Shown here: positions 4,618-11,301 of the stretch, piece by piece
Numbering within the stretch: position 1 is the stretch's first letter
How the letters are laid out: each line of letters starts with the position of its first letter
NCBI GenBank assembly: GCA_035540975.1
Contig: DATLFN010000064.1
Span: 1 to 42,094, forward strand
Direction: 5' to 3'
From: Acidimicrobiales bacterium
GTDB lineage: Bacteria > Actinomycetota > Acidimicrobiia > Acidimicrobiales > GCA-2861595
DNA length: 42,094 nucleotides
Position numbers and translations under genes: made by a program
Notes under the pieces: generated by a model
What the model was told of the DNA's origin: nothing
The model's database searches: none
Seen by the model: only the letters and a program-made list of their open reading frames with translations

Positions 4618-5568
4618 CTACCAGGAGCCGGTGGCCCGCAGGCGGGGGTCGAGCACGTCCCGCAGGCCGTCGCCCAGCAGGTTGAGCCCGAGGACCACGA
4701 ACGACACCGCCATGCCGGGCGCCAGCATGAGGTGGGGGTACGACGGGAAGTAGGGCCGCGACTCGTTCAGCATCGATCCCCACTCCGGGGTGGGCGGCTG
4801 GGCACCCAGACCGAGGAAGCTGAGCCCCGCCACCGCCAGGATGAGCCGTCCCATGCGCTGGGTGACGAGGACGACGACGGCCGGGGCGATGTTCGGCAGG
4901 ATGTGCCGCCGGATGAGGCGGGCGTTGCCGGCGCCCAGGGCGCTGCTCGCCTCCACGTACGGCTGCCTGCGCACCGACAGGACCAGTCCCCTGACGATCC
5001 TGGCGAAGCCCACCCACCACACCGACACCAGCCCCACCAGGACGGCCAGCACGCTGGGCTCGAACAGGCCGGCGATGGCGAAGGCGACGACCAGGCCCGG
5101 AAGGGCGAGGAGGAGGTCGACGACGCGCATGATCACGGCGTCCACCTTCCCGCCGAAGTGGCCGGCGACCGTGCCGACGAGGACACCGATCGACATGACG
5201 AGGGCGGTCGCCAGCGCCGCCGCGCCGAGGGAGAGGCGCCCGCCGTGCAGGATGCGGCTGAGGACGTCGCGCCCCAGGCCGTCGGTGCCGAGGAGGTGCC
5301 CCCACGACGGGGAGCGCAGCCGCTCGCCGGTGATGACCAGCGGGTCCTGGGGCGAGACGAGCGGAGCGAGCAGCGCCGCACCGGCGGCCAGCGCCACGAT
5401 CGCACCGCCGGCACACGCGTTCCCGCTGCGCAGCACGCGCCCTGCCAGCCGCCGCGGTGCGCCCACCGTGCCCGGGGCCGGGTCGACCGCGGGCGCCAGG
5501 ACGTCGCCCCCCACCGCCGGCTCCTCCGCCGACGCCGCAACCCCCGCCCGCCGCGGCCCCGCCACCAT
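4618..5568 (-). CDS. ABC transporter permease, DppC/OppC type
   Basis: Inner-membrane permease of 316 residues for peptide, nickel or opine-type uptake. The N-terminal ~40 residues are cytoplasmic, followed by one TM segment and then the BPD_transp_1 domain, which carries the EAA-loop region (YVEASSALGAGNARLIRRHILPN). The motif WGHLLGTDGLGRDVLSR just after the first TM is characteristic of DppC/OppC. The start ATG at 5566-5568 shares one base with the stop of the upstream permease (TGATG), so translation is coupled. The frame is open further upstream to 5751, but that part is antisense-like to the dppB-type gene. It is the last gene of the minus-strand operon; no ATPase gene follows. Confidence 0.9.
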   Translation of the reverse strand: MVAGPRRAGVAASAEEPAVGGDVLAPAVDPAPGTVGAPRRLAGRVLRSGNACAGGAIVALAAGAALLAPLVSPQDPLVITGERLRSPSWGHLLGTDGLGRDVLSRILHGGRLSLGAAALATALVMSIGVLVGTVAGHFGGKVDAVIMRVVDLLLALPGLVVAFAIAGLFEPSVLAVLVGLVSVWWVGFARIVRGLVLSVRRQPYVEASSALGAGNARLIRRHILPNIAPAVVVLVTQRMGRLILAVAGLSFLGLGAQPPTPEWGSMLNESRPYFPSYPHLMLAPGMAVSFVVLGLNLLGDGLRDVLDPRLRATGSW

Positions 5569-6512
5569 CAGCGGCCCTCGGCCGACAGTCGGATGCGGGG
5601 ATCGAGCGCCCCGTAGACGAGATCGGTGAGGAAGTTCACGACGACGTAGGCCGTGGCGGTGACCAGGACGAAACCCTGGATCACCGGGTAGTCCTTGGCG
5701 TTGATGGCATTGACGGCGAGCTCGCCGAGCCCCGGCCAGCTGAAGATCCACTCGACGACGAACGCCCCGCCCAGGAGGCCCCCGAGCGAGAGGCCGATGA
5801 CGGTGACGATGGGCACGGCGGCATTGCGGAGCGCGTGGGCGAACAGGACACGGGAGGTGCCGACGCCCTTCGCCCGGGCCGTGCGGAGATAGTCCTCGCC
5901 GAGGACGTCGAGCACGGCGGCGCGAGCGAACCGGGTGAGGCTGGCGGCGGACCCGAGGGCGAGGGTCAGTGCGGGGAGCACCAGATGCTGCGCCGAGTCG
6001 AAGCCGAGCACGGGGAGGACCTCGAGCCGCACGGCGAAGAACAGGATCAGCAGATAGGCCAGGAGGTAGCCCGGGAGCGATGCGCCGACCAATGCACCCA
6101 TGCGGCAGATGTGGTCCACCAGCGTGTCGCGGCGGTAGGCGGAGAGCACCCCGAGGGGCACGGCGATGAGCACCGAGAGGGCGAGGGCGGCGCTCGCCAA
6201 CAGCACCGTCCGCGGCAGCCGCTCTCGTATCAGCGAGGCGACGGCGTCACCGCTGACGTACGACTCACCGAGGTCGCCGCGCGCCGCCCGCCCGAGCCAC
6301 CGGGCGTACTGCACCGCCAGCGGGCGGTCGAGGCCGAGCTCCTCGCGCTTGCGCTCGATCTGGTCGGGCGTCGGCGGCAGCTCGAGCGTGAGCTGGAGCG
6401 CCAGCTCGGCGGGATCGCCCGGGGCGAGGACGCCGAGGCCGAAGGTGACGACCGAGACCCCGAGGACGACGACGGCGAGCCATACGACCCTCGCCGCCGT
6501 GTAGCGGATCAC
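5568..6512 (-). CDS. ABC transporter permease, DppB/OppB type
   Basis: Permease of 314 residues with six predicted TM segments. The N-terminal signature of the DppB family is present (a first TM, then PGDPAELAL and the LGLDRPLAVQYARWLG segment before a GDLGESY motif). The EAA-like loop (DYLRTARAKGVGTSRVLFAHALRN) that contacts the ATPase lies at about residues 205-228. It should pair with the DppC-type protein encoded next, forming the heterodimeric channel. The start is GTG at 6512, 33 nt after the stop of the pilin-fused binding protein, so the three genes form one operon. Substrate is unknown. The cognate ATPase must be encoded elsewhere. Confidence 0.92.
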   Translation of the reverse strand: MIRYTAARVVWLAVVVLGVSVVTFGLGVLAPGDPAELALQLTLELPPTPDQIERKREELGLDRPLAVQYARWLGRAARGDLGESYVSGDAVASLIRERLPRTVLLASAALALSVLIAVPLGVLSAYRRDTLVDHICRMGALVGASLPGYLLAYLLILFFAVRLEVLPVLGFDSAQHLVLPALTLALGSAASLTRFARAAVLDVLGEDYLRTARAKGVGTSRVLFAHALRNAAVPIVTVIGLSLGGLLGGAFVVEWIFSWPGLGELAVNAINAKDYPVIQGFVLVTATAYVVVNFLTDLVYGALDPRIRLSAEGR

Positions 6513-6545: not shown

Positions 6546-8495
6546 TCACAGGTCGCTCGACGCCGTGGTCCTGTAGACGGTGGACCAGTTGAGGTGCGAC
6601 TCCGCCGGGTGTGGTGGCGTGAACCCCGCCACCCCCTTCTTCATGGCGTAGACCCGGGAGAGGCCGGCCAGGGGGATGATCTTGACCTCTTGATCGAACA
6701 GGAGGTCCATGGCCTCGGCCGAGTACCGCTGGGCGCCGTCGAACGTGGGCGACGCCAGCGCCCGCTCCACCAGGGCGTCGAAGGCGGGCCCGGCCTGCTG
6801 CCAGGGGCCGCAGTTCGGCGGCGTGGCGGCGAGGCAGGACACCCAGGGGTTGACCGACTTCGACCACCACTGGAGGGTGAGCAGGAAGGCCGGGTTGGCG
6901 TCGTTCTGGTTGGGGTTGGTGTGGTCGAGGTCCCACAGCCCCTGGTTCTTGCGAGTCGTGCGCTGCGCGCTGGACAGGTTGCCACCGATCTCGATCTCGA
7001 TGCCGGCCTTGAGAGCTCGCGACCTCAGGTCCTGCAGCAGCGGGTCGTCGGCGTTGTTCGTGCTGCTGAGCATGTACAGGCTGAGGCGCTCGCCCGCCTT
7101 CTGGCGCACCTCGTCGGCGCCGCAGGCCGTGTTGGCGCCCGGAGCGCCGCCGCCGCACGTCCACCCGTCGGCGTCCAGGACCTGTCGGGCCTGCGCCAGG
7201 TCGAACGGGACGCCCTGGATCATCGGGGCATGGCTGCCGAGGATCGACGGCGGCGACGGGGTGTGCACGACCGTGGCGACGCCCGGCTCCCAGTTCTGGT
7301 CGACGAACTCCTGGCGGTCGATGCTCAGGGCCAGCGCCCGACGGACGCTCGGGCTCTGGAGCTCGTCGTACGCCGGATCGGTCCCGGCCAGGTTCATGTA
7401 GAAGTTGAAGACGTAGCTCGGCGGGGCCGTCACGACGTCGAGGTCGGACTTGGCGCGCAGGCCGGCGACCTGGCTCCGACCGACGTCGTACATGGCGTCG
7501 ATCTGGCCCGCTTCCAGGGCGAGCCGGCGGGTGGTGGCGTCGCCGATGAACCGGAACGTCAGCTCCCGCAGCCTTGCCTTGGTCCCCCAGTAGGCGTCGT
7601 GGCGCTCGACGACGATGCGGTCGCCCTGCGTGTAGCTCTTGAACTTGAACGGGCCGGTGCACACCACCGTCGACGCCGTCGCCGGCATGGTGGATGGCTC
7701 GGTCTGGTCCTTGATGACGGCGTAGGTGGGGTGGACCAGGATCTCGGGAAGCCGGAGGTTGGACTCGGCCGGCGTGATGTCGATCGTCTGCGGGTCGACG
7801 ACCACGCTCGATGCCGCGCCGAGCTTGGCCGTGAAGTCGTCTCCCTTGGAGACGAGCCGGTCCATGGACCACTTGACGTCCTGGGCGGTGAACGCCGACC
7901 CGTCGTGGAAGGTGACCCCGGGCCGGAGCCGGAACCGCCAGGTCGGGTTGTTGACCCCACCCGTCTTGTAGGTCGGGTTGTTGCCGGGGTTGATGAGCTC
8001 CCAGCTCGTGGCCAGGCGCTCGCCCACCGAGTAGTCGTTGCGGACCTTGGCGAGCGTCTCGCACGTTCCGGCGTCCAGGGCGAACCGGGACAGCCGGAGC
8101 TTGCTGTTCGCCCACGGGTCGGCCTTGTAGCCGACCGTCATGGTCTGGTCGGCGTCGCCCACCGGTTGGCCGGCAGCGATCGAGTACCCCGTGCCGTCGG
8201 ACGTCGGTGCGATGTGGTGGTAATCCGACGGCGAGGCGAGGAAGCCGCCCTCGACCAGCTCCTCGACGCTCCCGGCGTAGCGACCGTTCTTGGCGAAGAA
8301 CGCCTCCTGGGCGGTCCGGATGGTGCGGGCGTCGGTGGCCTCGGCCGCCGACTCGCCCTTGTCGTCGATCCCGCTCACCGAGAACACCACGACCCCGGCC
8401 AGGATCCCGAGGATGACGATGACGACCAGGAGCTCGATGAGCGTGAAGCCGTCCTGGCGTGACCGGTTCCTCGTGCGTGAGACCAGCCGGGTCAT
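6546..8495 (-). CDS. Type IV pilin-like domain fused to family 5 ABC solute-binding protein
   Basis: A 649-residue protein in one unbroken frame. Residues 1-16 are a basic leader ending in Gly (SRQDG). Then comes FTLIE with the conserved Glu at mature position 5 and a long hydrophobic helix (residues ~17-40), the class III signal cut by prepilin peptidase. Residues ~41-115 look like a GspG/PilA globular domain (DARTIRTAQEAFFAKNGRYA, ELVEGGFLASPSDY). From ~118 to the end is an SBP_bac_5 dipeptide/oligopeptide-binding fold, starting MTVGYKADPW and including RLRPGVTFHDGSAFTAQDV and a C-terminal PAESHLNWSTVY. The expected Sec signal or lipobox of a binding protein is absent. The start is ATG 8495 with GGGGAGGG a few bases upstream; the frame extends to 8588 but without coding character. 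The two permeases follow 33 nt later. Inference: the binding protein is displayed on a pilus/pseudopilus, or the pilin helix serves as membrane anchor. Confidence 0.9.
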   Translation of the reverse strand: MTRLVSRTRNRSRQDGFTLIELLVVIVILGILAGVVVFSVSGIDDKGESAAEATDARTIRTAQEAFFAKNGRYAGSVEELVEGGFLASPSDYHHIAPTSDGTGYSIAAGQPVGDADQTMTVGYKADPWANSKLRLSRFALDAGTCETLAKVRNDYSVGERLATSWELINPGNNPTYKTGGVNNPTWRFRLRPGVTFHDGSAFTAQDVKWSMDRLVSKGDDFTAKLGAASSVVVDPQTIDITPAESNLRLPEILVHPTYAVIKDQTEPSTMPATASTVVCTGPFKFKSYTQGDRIVVERHDAYWGTKARLRELTFRFIGDATTRRLALEAGQIDAMYDVGRSQVAGLRAKSDLDVVTAPPSYVFNFYMNLAGTDPAYDELQSPSVRRALALSIDRQEFVDQNWEPGVATVVHTPSPPSILGSHAPMIQGVPFDLAQARQVLDADGWTCGGGAPGANTACGADEVRQKAGERLSLYMLSSTNNADDPLLQDLRSRALKAGIEIEIGGNLSSAQRTTRKNQGLWDLDHTNPNQNDANPAFLLTLQWWSKSVNPWVSCLAATPPNCGPWQQAGPAFDALVERALASPTFDGAQRYSAEAMDLLFDQEVKIIPLAGLSRVYAMKKGVAGFTPPHPAESHLNWSTVYRTTASSDL

Positions 8496-8603
8496 GTGAG
8501 CCCTCCCCCAAGGTGTGCCGGCAGGCCACGAAGGCTCGGCACGGAGCTCCTCGCGGGACCCTCGGTCGTGGCACTCCCGACGCCACATCGTCTGGTCGCA
8601 CGT

Positions 8604-8694: not shown

Positions 8695-11301
8695 ATGACG
8701 CCTGTGCCCAGCGATGCCGGCGACGCGCGTCCGGCCGGACGGAGCGCACCGGTGCCGCCAGGCCCGCCGGCCCGCCGTCGCCGCAGCGCCAGCCTCCGCC
8801 GCCTCCTCCTCTCGATCGCCGTGATTAGCGGGGCCGTCTACGCCGCGTTCTGGACGTCGTGGACGTGGGACCACCACCAGGAGGAGCGCAGACGGGCCGA
8901 GACGGTCGTCCAACGCAATCTCGACCGGGCCACGCTCGGGTTCGTCGGTTTCCTGAAGGCTCGGACGGCCGCCGCGGCCGAGGCGGCGGCGGCCGTCGAC
9001 CCCGGGGCGCCGGGTGGGCCGGCGTGCCCCCTGCCGAGCATCCCGGTCAGCCCCGGCGACGCGCCGATCGAGCGCTACGACCTCGTGCGGCCCGACGGCT
9101 CCCTGGTGTGCACCACGGCTGGCGCCACGAGCGGGCCGGTCCCCTCGGCCCTCGGGGCGCCGTGGCTGGCAACCGACTATCGGCCCGGCTCGCCGTCCGA
9201 CGACTACGTCGACCCGGCGACCGGTCTCAGCGCGTGGGGCGTGGCGTTCCCGGTCGGGAGCGGCGCCGACGCCGCCGTCCTGGCGGCGGTGGTCCAGCTG
9301 GCGCCGGCCAGCGACCAGCTCGGGGGGCTCTTCGGTGACGGGCTCGGGACCGCGTACGTGGTCTCCGACGCCGAGACCGGCGCCATCCTCTCGCGCCCGG
9401 CCGGCACCTCGTGGACGGCGGAGCGCCCCGGCGGGCACATCGTCTTCAGCCGCCGCATCCCGGGAACCGACTGGCAGCTCTCGGCCGGCGTCGACCGGTC
9501 GGTCGCCTACGCCGAGACCTGGGACGAGGTGAAGGGCGGCGCCCTCGCGCTCGTCGCCGCCATAGGGGCGCTCACCCTCCTGACCACGCTGGTCCACCGC
9601 CGCATCGTGCGGCCGCTGGGCGACATCACCGCCGCCGCCCGGCGTGCCGGCGACGGCGGTACGACGTCGCTGGACGAGTCGGGACCGGCGGAGCTGGCCC
9701 AGCTGGCACGCGAGCTCAACCAGCTGACGGCGAGCCGGGCCCGGAGCGAGAACCTGCTGAAGGTCACCGCCGAGCACCTCGCCCACTCCGTGGAGCGTCT
9801 GGACGCCGTGCTTGCCAACTCGGCCGACATGGTCCTGATCGTCGACGGCGACGGCAAGGTCACCTTCGCCAGCCCGGCCGCCGCCGCCGCCTGTGCGCCC
9901 GTCGTCGTGCCCGGCGTCGAGCTGGCGTCGGTGGTCCATCCCGACGACGCGGCCAAGGCGACCGCCCTGGTCCGGCCCGGGGCCCCCGCCGACCCGACCG
10001 TCGAGCTGCGGCTCGGCAGCCACGGCTGCGGCTGGCGGCACGTCGAGATGGTCGCCCGTGACCTGCTCGACCACCCGGCCGTGCACGGGATCGTCATCAA
10101 CGGGCGCGACGTCACCGAGCGCCGGGCCGAGGCCGCCGAGCGCGCCGCCCTGGACGAGCAGCTCCACCAGTCGCAGCGCCTGGAGAGCCTGGGCGCCCTC
10201 GCCGGCGGCATCGCCCACGACTTCAAGAACCTGCTGTCGGTGATCGTGTGGACGAGCGACATGGTGGCGAGCGACCCGGCGGCCGGCCCGCTGCTCGGCG
10301 ACCTCGACGAGATCCGGGAGGCGGCCTCCCGCGGGGTCGACCTGGCGCAGCAGCTGCTCACGTTCGCCCGCCGTGACCAGGCGCTGCCCGAGCCCATCGA
10401 CGTCGGCGCCGAGCTGCTCGCCCTCGCCGAGCTCCTGCGGCGGGCGCTGGGCGACCACATCGACCTCGACCTGCGGATCGACCCCGGCCTTCCCCCGGTC
10501 CGCGTCAACCGGTCGCGTTTCGACCAGGCGATCGTGAACCTGGTCGTGAACGCGCGCGATGCCATGGGTGCGGGCGGCCGGCTGGTCGTCGAGGCGTGCG
10601 AGCACCGCTCGACCGGCGAGCCGGGGCTCGATGCCGGTCCCTGCGTCGTCGTCGCCGTCTCCGACTCGGGGTCGGGCATGGAACCGGAGGTGGCCAGGCG
10701 GGCCATGGAGCCCTTCTACACGACCAAGGCGCCCGGGCAGGGAACGGGGCTGGGCCTCGCCATCGTCCACGGGATCGTCACGTCGGCGGGCGGCGCCGTG
10801 CGCATCGCCTCCGAACCCGGACGGGGGACGACCGTGCGCCTCCTCCTGCCCGCCTCCGACGAGCCCAGCTCGACGACCGCTTACGACACCACCCGCGAGC
10901 CCGCCCTCGGCTCCGGCGAGGTGGTCCTGGTCGTCGAGGACGACGACCCGCTGCGGGCGCTGGTCGAGCGGATGCTGCGGGCCGGCAACTACACCGCCGT
11001 CGGCGCCGCCGACCCGGCGGCTGCGCTCGTGCTGGCCGCCGACCCCGACCAGCGCCTCGACGTGGTCCTCAGCGACCTCCTCATGCCCGGGATGTCGGGG
11101 GCGGACCTGGCCGCCCGCCTGGGCGACAAGCGCCCGGGCGTCCCCGTCATCTACATGTCGGCCTACACCGCCGACATCCTGGAGGAGCTGCTGGAGGCGG
11201 GGAGCTCACCGGTGGTCCTCGAGAAGCCCTTCACGCAGCGCCAGCTGCTGGAGGCCGTCGACGAGGCGCTCAGCCGGTCCAGCGCCGCGTCCGGCCGCTG
11301 A
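8695..11301 (+). CDS. Hybrid sensor histidine kinase with receiver domain
   Basis: Membrane-bound hybrid kinase of 868 residues. The order is: basic N-terminus; TM1 at ~37-55; extracytoplasmic sensing domain ~60-278, PDC/Cache-like by its layout and the YDLVRPDGSLV segment; TM2 at ~283-301; HAMP ~302-355; PAS ~366-470; HisKA with H508 in GGIAHDFKNLL (usual motif is HDFNN); HATPase with N-box around 611-624, DSGSGM and GTGLGLAIV; and a C-terminal receiver domain with VVEDDDP, D794 as phospho-acceptor and K844. With the receiver at the C-terminus and no output domain, phosphate is probably passed to another protein. It is divergent from the pilin-SBP operon and shares its intergenic region, so it may sense or control that system (inference). 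A TTG at 8686 is an alternative start. Confidence 0.92.
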   Translation: MTPVPSDAGDARPAGRSAPVPPGPPARRRRSASLRRLLLSIAVISGAVYAAFWTSWTWDHHQEERRRAETVVQRNLDRATLGFVGFLKARTAAAAEAAAAVDPGAPGGPACPLPSIPVSPGDAPIERYDLVRPDGSLVCTTAGATSGPVPSALGAPWLATDYRPGSPSDDYVDPATGLSAWGVAFPVGSGADAAVLAAVVQLAPASDQLGGLFGDGLGTAYVVSDAETGAILSRPAGTSWTAERPGGHIVFSRRIPGTDWQLSAGVDRSVAYAETWDEVKGGALALVAAIGALTLLTTLVHRRIVRPLGDITAAARRAGDGGTTSLDESGPAELAQLARELNQLTASRARSENLLKVTAEHLAHSVERLDAVLANSADMVLIVDGDGKVTFASPAAAAACAPVVVPGVELASVVHPDDAAKATALVRPGAPADPTVELRLGSHGCGWRHVEMVARDLLDHPAVHGIVINGRDVTERRAEAAERAALDEQLHQSQRLESLGALAGGIAHDFKNLLSVIVWTSDMVASDPAAGPLLGDLDEIREAASRGVDLAQQLLTFARRDQALPEPIDVGAELLALAELLRRALGDHIDLDLRIDPGLPPVRVNRSRFDQAIVNLVVNARDAMGAGGRLVVEACEHRSTGEPGLDAGPCVVVAVSDSGSGMEPEVARRAMEPFYTTKAPGQGTGLGLAIVHGIVTSAGGAVRIASEPGRGTTVRLLLPASDEPSSTTAYDTTREPALGSGEVVLVVEDDDPLRALVERMLRAGNYTAVGAADPAAALVLAADPDQRLDVVLSDLLMPGMSGADLAARLGDKRPGVPVIYMSAYTADILEELLEAGSSPVVLEKPFTQRQLLEAVDEALSRSSAASGR

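Follow-up and report, generated by a model that had tools for sequence, protein, structure and literature searches.

A type IV pilin fused to a family 5 ABC-importer receptor in an Acidimicrobiales bacterium: a candidate modular pilin of a retractable pilus

The window analysed here (the whole stretch of 42,094 nucleotides, contig C64 of genome G000; 3.45 Mb in 171 contigs, 97% complete) carries a gene in which a type IV pilin is joined to a solute-binding protein (SBP) of family 5. Its features are as follows.

8501–8509, minus strand: ribosome-binding site GGGGGAGGG, 5 nt upstream of the ATG, read from the sequence
6546–8495, minus strand: complete pilin–SBP fusion gene, 649 amino acids, a single frame of 649 codons plus stop
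8448–8495, minus strand: prepilin leader, residues 1–16, ending in Gly16 with predicted prepilin peptidase cleavage after it (N_methyl and sequence)
8286–8447, minus strand: pilin helix α1, residues 17–70, with Glu at mature position 5 (AlphaFold helix and alignment A1)
8172–8285, minus strand: remainder of the pilin module, residues 71–108, matching the C-terminal region of full stand-alone pilins (alignment A1)
6549–8147, minus strand: SBP module, residues 117–649, with the SBP_bac_5 core at residues 161–541 (6873–8015)
5568–6512, minus strand: ABC permease 1, BPD_transp_1, DppB/OppB type, downstream of the fusion (Pfam)
4618–5568, minus strand: ABC permease 2, BPD_transp_1, DppC/OppC type, downstream of the fusion (Pfam)
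8752–11301, plus strand: hybrid sensor histidine kinase with HAMP, PAS, HisKA, HATPase and receiver domains, divergent from the fusion; putative operon link

An earlier note on this DNA had described one 649-codon frame with its own strong ribosome site, a prepilin leader (Gly16, FTLIE, Glu5) running on to a complete SBP_bac_5 domain, and both permeases in the operon, and the sequence and the Pfam matches agree with it on each point. N_methyl was found at residues 11–36 (E 1.3e-9) and SBP_bac_5 at residues 161–541 (E 5.7e-65; 220 bits against a cut-off of 32.4), with no Pfam domain in the fusion beyond these two. The start is a class III, N_methyl (IPR012902-type) signature in which Gly16 is followed by FTLIE with Glu5, and the stretch FTLIELLVV is invariant across alignment A1. 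Residues 1–108 align with complete plain pilins of 100–150 residues; the fusion therefore has a whole pilin module and not a mere signal. The pilin-like domain is thus complete, as had been proposed, at a corrected size: about 108 residues with the leader, in line with stand-alone pilins, which have 100–120. An AlphaFold model of the module has a long first helix (residues 19–70, 52 residues) at moderate confidence (mean pLDDT 75), and Foldseek returned weak pilin matches for it (best PDB match Thermus PilA4, E 0.25, probability 0.95). The closest named pilins are those of Amycolatopsis and Nocardioides. Among solved structures, the SBP part finds its matches in nickel- and peptide-binding proteins, with the nickel-binding protein 3t66 at the top.

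The two modules join at about residues 108–118 (window ~8142–8174), in keeping with the junction near 8130–8180 marked beforehand. The GC content at third codon positions is 0.94–0.98 over the entire frame, junction included. The SBP module has no lipobox, second membrane segment, second start or signal sequence, and the pilin helix is the sole membrane segment of a protein that lacks the lipoprotein or Sec signal of an SBP. With an N_methyl motif, a complete pilin module and an extra C-terminal domain unrelated to pilus biology, the protein is, as judged from its sequence, a modular type IV pilin.

Modular type IV pilins form a large group, with more than 1,200 proteins in 264 architectures in one survey (PMC8179133), among them PilB (vWA) and PilC (lectin) of Streptococcus sanguinis. 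The fusion resembles the S. sanguinis type as the survey presents it, with a small N-terminal pilin module and a bulky functional module. It differs in that the modules discussed in the main text of the survey are adhesive, carbohydrate-binding, peptidase or of unknown function, whereas here the module is an ABC-importer receptor with permeases adjacent; Dataset S1 of the survey may already list the architecture. From the side of the transporter, the fusion is akin to the family 5 SBP lipoproteins (NikA/DppA/OppA/AppA type, with DppBC/OppBC) in its SBP_bac_5 fold, assigned by sequence, and in the cognate pair of BPD_transp_1 permeases in its operon, as in an SBP_bac_5 ABC-importer receptor, but it has a complete prepilin module in place of the lipobox or Sec signal. 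Our literature searches found no paper in which N_methyl and SBP_bac_5 occur together and none on bacterial pilin–SBP fusions.

The architecture recurs both in relatives and in further copies within the window genome, and thus passes the test of the earlier note that it should not be missing from all relatives. Five of the 11 SBP_bac_5 genes of this genome bear N_methyl (the window gene, one on contig C27, two on C65 and one on C154), and on C136 a further fusion, the sixth, has Peripla_BP_2 attached to this type of pilin and is followed by FecCD and ATPase genes. Three fusions, all on one contig, are present in G002, from another genus (g3) of the window family. In another family of the order (f29), G117 has one fusion, orthologous to that on C154 and 74–78% identical to it. 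Besides the window gene there are thus nine SBP-type fusions, eight in G000 and G002 and the ninth, with a divergent pilin module, in G117; among the sampled genomes the SBP version of the pilin was found in just these three. Ten such fusions in three genomes rule out a unique oddity. Glu5, which many polymerising pilins need, is kept in all of them except that of G117. A permease pair comes immediately after each of the fusions of the window, C27, C65 and G117. A search of viral contigs gave no relative, and a search of genome contigs gave generic pilins, with no named fusion among the matches listed.

Two of these loci merit separate description. The G117 fusion (L152:5379–7715) has a degenerate pilin start, GVTVITIIV, without Glu5, and might serve as a subunit at the tip or be a relic; the 78% identity of its SBP module to that of C154 may reflect horizontal transfer. 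At L031:6815–8089, a pilin with a Peripla_BP_2 (FecB-like) receptor precedes FecCD permease and ATPase genes, so that this type of pilin bears receptors of two classes.

The fusions on C65 lie in a cluster for a second pilus system (system 2). Its order is PilW-like pilins, PilC, PilB, a two-component system, a plain pilin of the type found in the fusions, a permease pair, a fusion, a second permease pair, a fusion, OppD/F and PilT. On contig C26 of G002 a plain pilin, a two-component system, permeases, the three fusions and OppD/F are likewise closed by PilT; the system-2 PilB of G002 is on a different contig. Both cluster PilT proteins score above the TIGR01420 cut-off (450 and 417 bits against 319). 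The C65 cluster contains no prepilin peptidase and no PilM/N/O, and the one prepilin peptidase (PilD) gene of the genome is on C73, so that the genome has both the peptidase and the PilB/PilC homologues for which the earlier note had called. Of six genomes from the family, only G000 and G002 have system-2 PilB (77% identical) and PilT (74%), and these two are also the only fusion bearers; the remaining genomes have pilus ATPases of other systems only, mostly at or below 51% identity (at most 45–51%). G003, of the same genus as G002, lacks this pilin type, and its relative of the window SBP is a lipoprotein (L034:8232–9860). The sample is small, yet the pattern is consistent. The window operon itself is not adjacent to pilus genes.

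The two modules of the fusions were then compared for their relationships. In a tree of the SBP modules, the fused proteins fall into two well-separated clades, each with an unfused lipoprotein member, and the supported branches force at least two changes of state. With Peripla_BP_2 added to these two clades, the same pilin type was joined to receptors at least three times, and such repeated joining of one pilin module to receptors of unrelated families amounts to evolution by module swapping. Among the eight proteins compared, the pilin modules are 70.9% identical within genomes versus 59.7% between them (the most extreme of 56 relabellings), whereas the SBP modules show no within-genome excess (33.6% within, 35.9% between). 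The orthologous SBP modules of C65b and G002b, for example, are 78% identical, but their pilin modules just 52%. The fused pilin modules fall together with the pilins of system 2 and separate from canonical PilA, with a support of 100/100. Pilin modules matched to their genome are the pattern expected if the module must fit its own pilus; the likeness could also be the product of gene conversion that has no functional significance.

Pilins of this type occur in 86 of 397 genomes from the order, 78 of 395 from the class and 50 of 396 from the phylum, in samples that overlap and with a stricter cut-off in the phylum search. They are often beside PilB/PilC/PilT, and in other lineages they bear CBM2, lectin-like (Laminin_G_3) or repeat modules. 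The pilus type is thus a general vehicle for binding modules, which in the family of the window are, by their predicted domains, ABC receptors. Long frames in other members of the class and phylum that had been considered as SBP fusions turned out to be modular pilins of other kinds (CBM2, lectin-like, repeat or propeller) or were spurious; G325, G337, G962 and G929 are among those rejected as SBP fusions. Individual cases include two same-type pilins with a cellulose-binding CBM2 after long Thr/Pro-rich linkers (L154:5562–6716, assigned by Pfam, and L155:5106–6302, assigned by resemblance), modular pilins from the class in which the added module is a repeat or resembles a lectin (L164, L166–L168, L170, L172, L174 and L177), and a genome with seven pilin-type matches (G408). 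In another lineage of the phylum, a pilin of this type with a beta-propeller-like C-terminal module (L190:1797–3338) shares its contig with a PilB/PilC/PilT cluster (L189).

Taken together, these data favour a modular type IV pilin with a family 5 (peptide/nickel-type) ABC-importer receptor as its effector, working with a dedicated retractable pilus as an analogue of the archaeal bindosome; we give this reading a probability of about 0.6. The clustering of receptor genes with a pilus motor and a transporter suggests nutrient capture by pili, otherwise known to date only from a comparable archaeal system. PilD would remove the leader and leave the mature pilin helix in the membrane, from where PilB/PilC would build receptor-bearing pilins and plain pilin into a pilus or a short pseudopilus. 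Because the SBP module is bulky, the receptor-bearing pilins would probably be at or near the tip of the filament, and ligand would be bound at or beyond the cell wall. The loaded receptor would then reach its permease pair through PilT-driven retraction or disassembly, or from an unassembled pool in the membrane. The display of the receptor on a pilus, already proposed in the earlier note, gains support from the C65 cluster and from the co-occurrence with the pilus system in the family; the display itself, the polymerisation and the coupling to transport are what we infer. More tentatively, the pilus might carry several ABC receptors as interchangeable subunits, extended past the cell wall, with PilT retraction handing loaded receptors to the permeases. 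It counts against a pilus that a receptor on it must return to the membrane to feed its permease, that the window operon is away from pilus genes, that the G117 fusion lacks Glu5, and that C65 lacks the peptidase and PilM/N/O.

A close precedent is the bindosome of Sulfolobus solfataricus (GlcS, AraS and the Bas system; PMC4187195, PMC4471445), in which SBPs carry class III (prepilin) signals and deletion of the Bas machine impairs sugar uptake. The earlier statement that no system of this kind had been described was thus too strong, given the bindosome (PMC4187195) and the bacterial modular pilins covered by the survey (PMC8179133). Both systems have ABC binding proteins with class III signals, which here too would be served by a dedicated type IV pilus-like machine. 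Here, however, the host is a bacterium, a whole pilin module is fused rather than only a signal and helix, the SBPs belong to family 5 and to Peripla_BP_2, and PilT is part of the cluster. The fusion system would work like the bindosome without being a member of it, since its ATPases are bacterial, their scores against NCBIfam BasE (NF053672) are only 26–44 bits for a cut-off of 1000, so that they are not orthologous Bas machinery, and the PilT family is absent from archaea (PMC4858521). If the preferred reading is correct, the archaeal bindosome has a counterpart in bacteria that is equipped with a retraction motor, feeding ABC importers becomes a further job of bacterial type IV pili, and a wall-covered bacterium has a way to collect nutrients away from the membrane. 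To our knowledge, a filament of the archaeal bindosome has never been seen.

The main rival to a receptor-bearing pilus is that the pilin segment, processed or not, only tethers the receptor in place of a lipid anchor, without ever becoming part of a filament. No lipobox is present in the fusions, in contrast to the unfused SBPs of the genome, most of which have one or else a Sec signal; most fusions have permeases next to them, as fits normal SBP work at the membrane; the closest unfused relatives are lipoproteins; and the G117 fusion has lost Glu5. A bare helix would suffice for tethering, yet the module of about 108 residues is kept whole, with Glu5 in all fusions but one. Moreover, the fusions cluster and co-occur with PilB/PilC/PilT, their pilin modules match the genome's own pilins and not the SBP ancestry, and binding modules for which there is no permease are also found on this type of pilin. 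Anchoring alone is thus somewhat unlikely. Less probable still is a pilus-borne SBP whose binding of peptides, glycan fragments or metal complexes would serve attachment or histidine-kinase signalling rather than import. Two-component genes are found beside fusions on C64, C65 and C26 of G002 and near that on C27, the CBM2 and lectin-like modules of relatives suggest adhesion, and the modular pilin PilB of S. sanguinis is described as an adhesin in the survey (PMC8179133). This role sits poorly with the permease pairs placed directly after several of the fusions, with OppD/F in the clusters and with the Peripla_BP_2 fusion, which has transporter genes of the FecCD type, the kind that suits it, alongside. 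A frameshift, misassembly or chance read-through of two adjacent genes, conceivable in an assembly of 171 contigs, is already refuted by the nine independent fusions in three genomes, by a coding signal that is even across the junction and by an SBP module with no start or signal of its own.

Several further observations concern the neighbours of the fusions. Histidine-kinase or two-component genes adjoin several fusion operons (window 8752–11301, L027:5237–8193 and L032:4607–7447), perhaps for ligand-linked regulation. NMT1/THI5-like binding proteins adjoin the C27 fusion (L026:8981–9859) and its lipoprotein relative in G003 (L034:9875–10780), and so form a conserved neighbour. The C65 cluster includes a degenerate pilin-like protein (L027:18048–18479) with a pilin-like middle, in which a prepilin cleavage motif could not be recognised. 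Near fusions, L029:378–908, L032:13091–13678 and L032:18178–18600 encode small conserved proteins, each with a single predicted membrane segment and possibly accessory to the system; Pfam has no family for the first two. At L034:4139–7186, a single gene of 1015 amino acids encodes an OppC-type permease together with two ATPase domains of the oligopeptide type, so that one chain makes up nearly a complete transporter.
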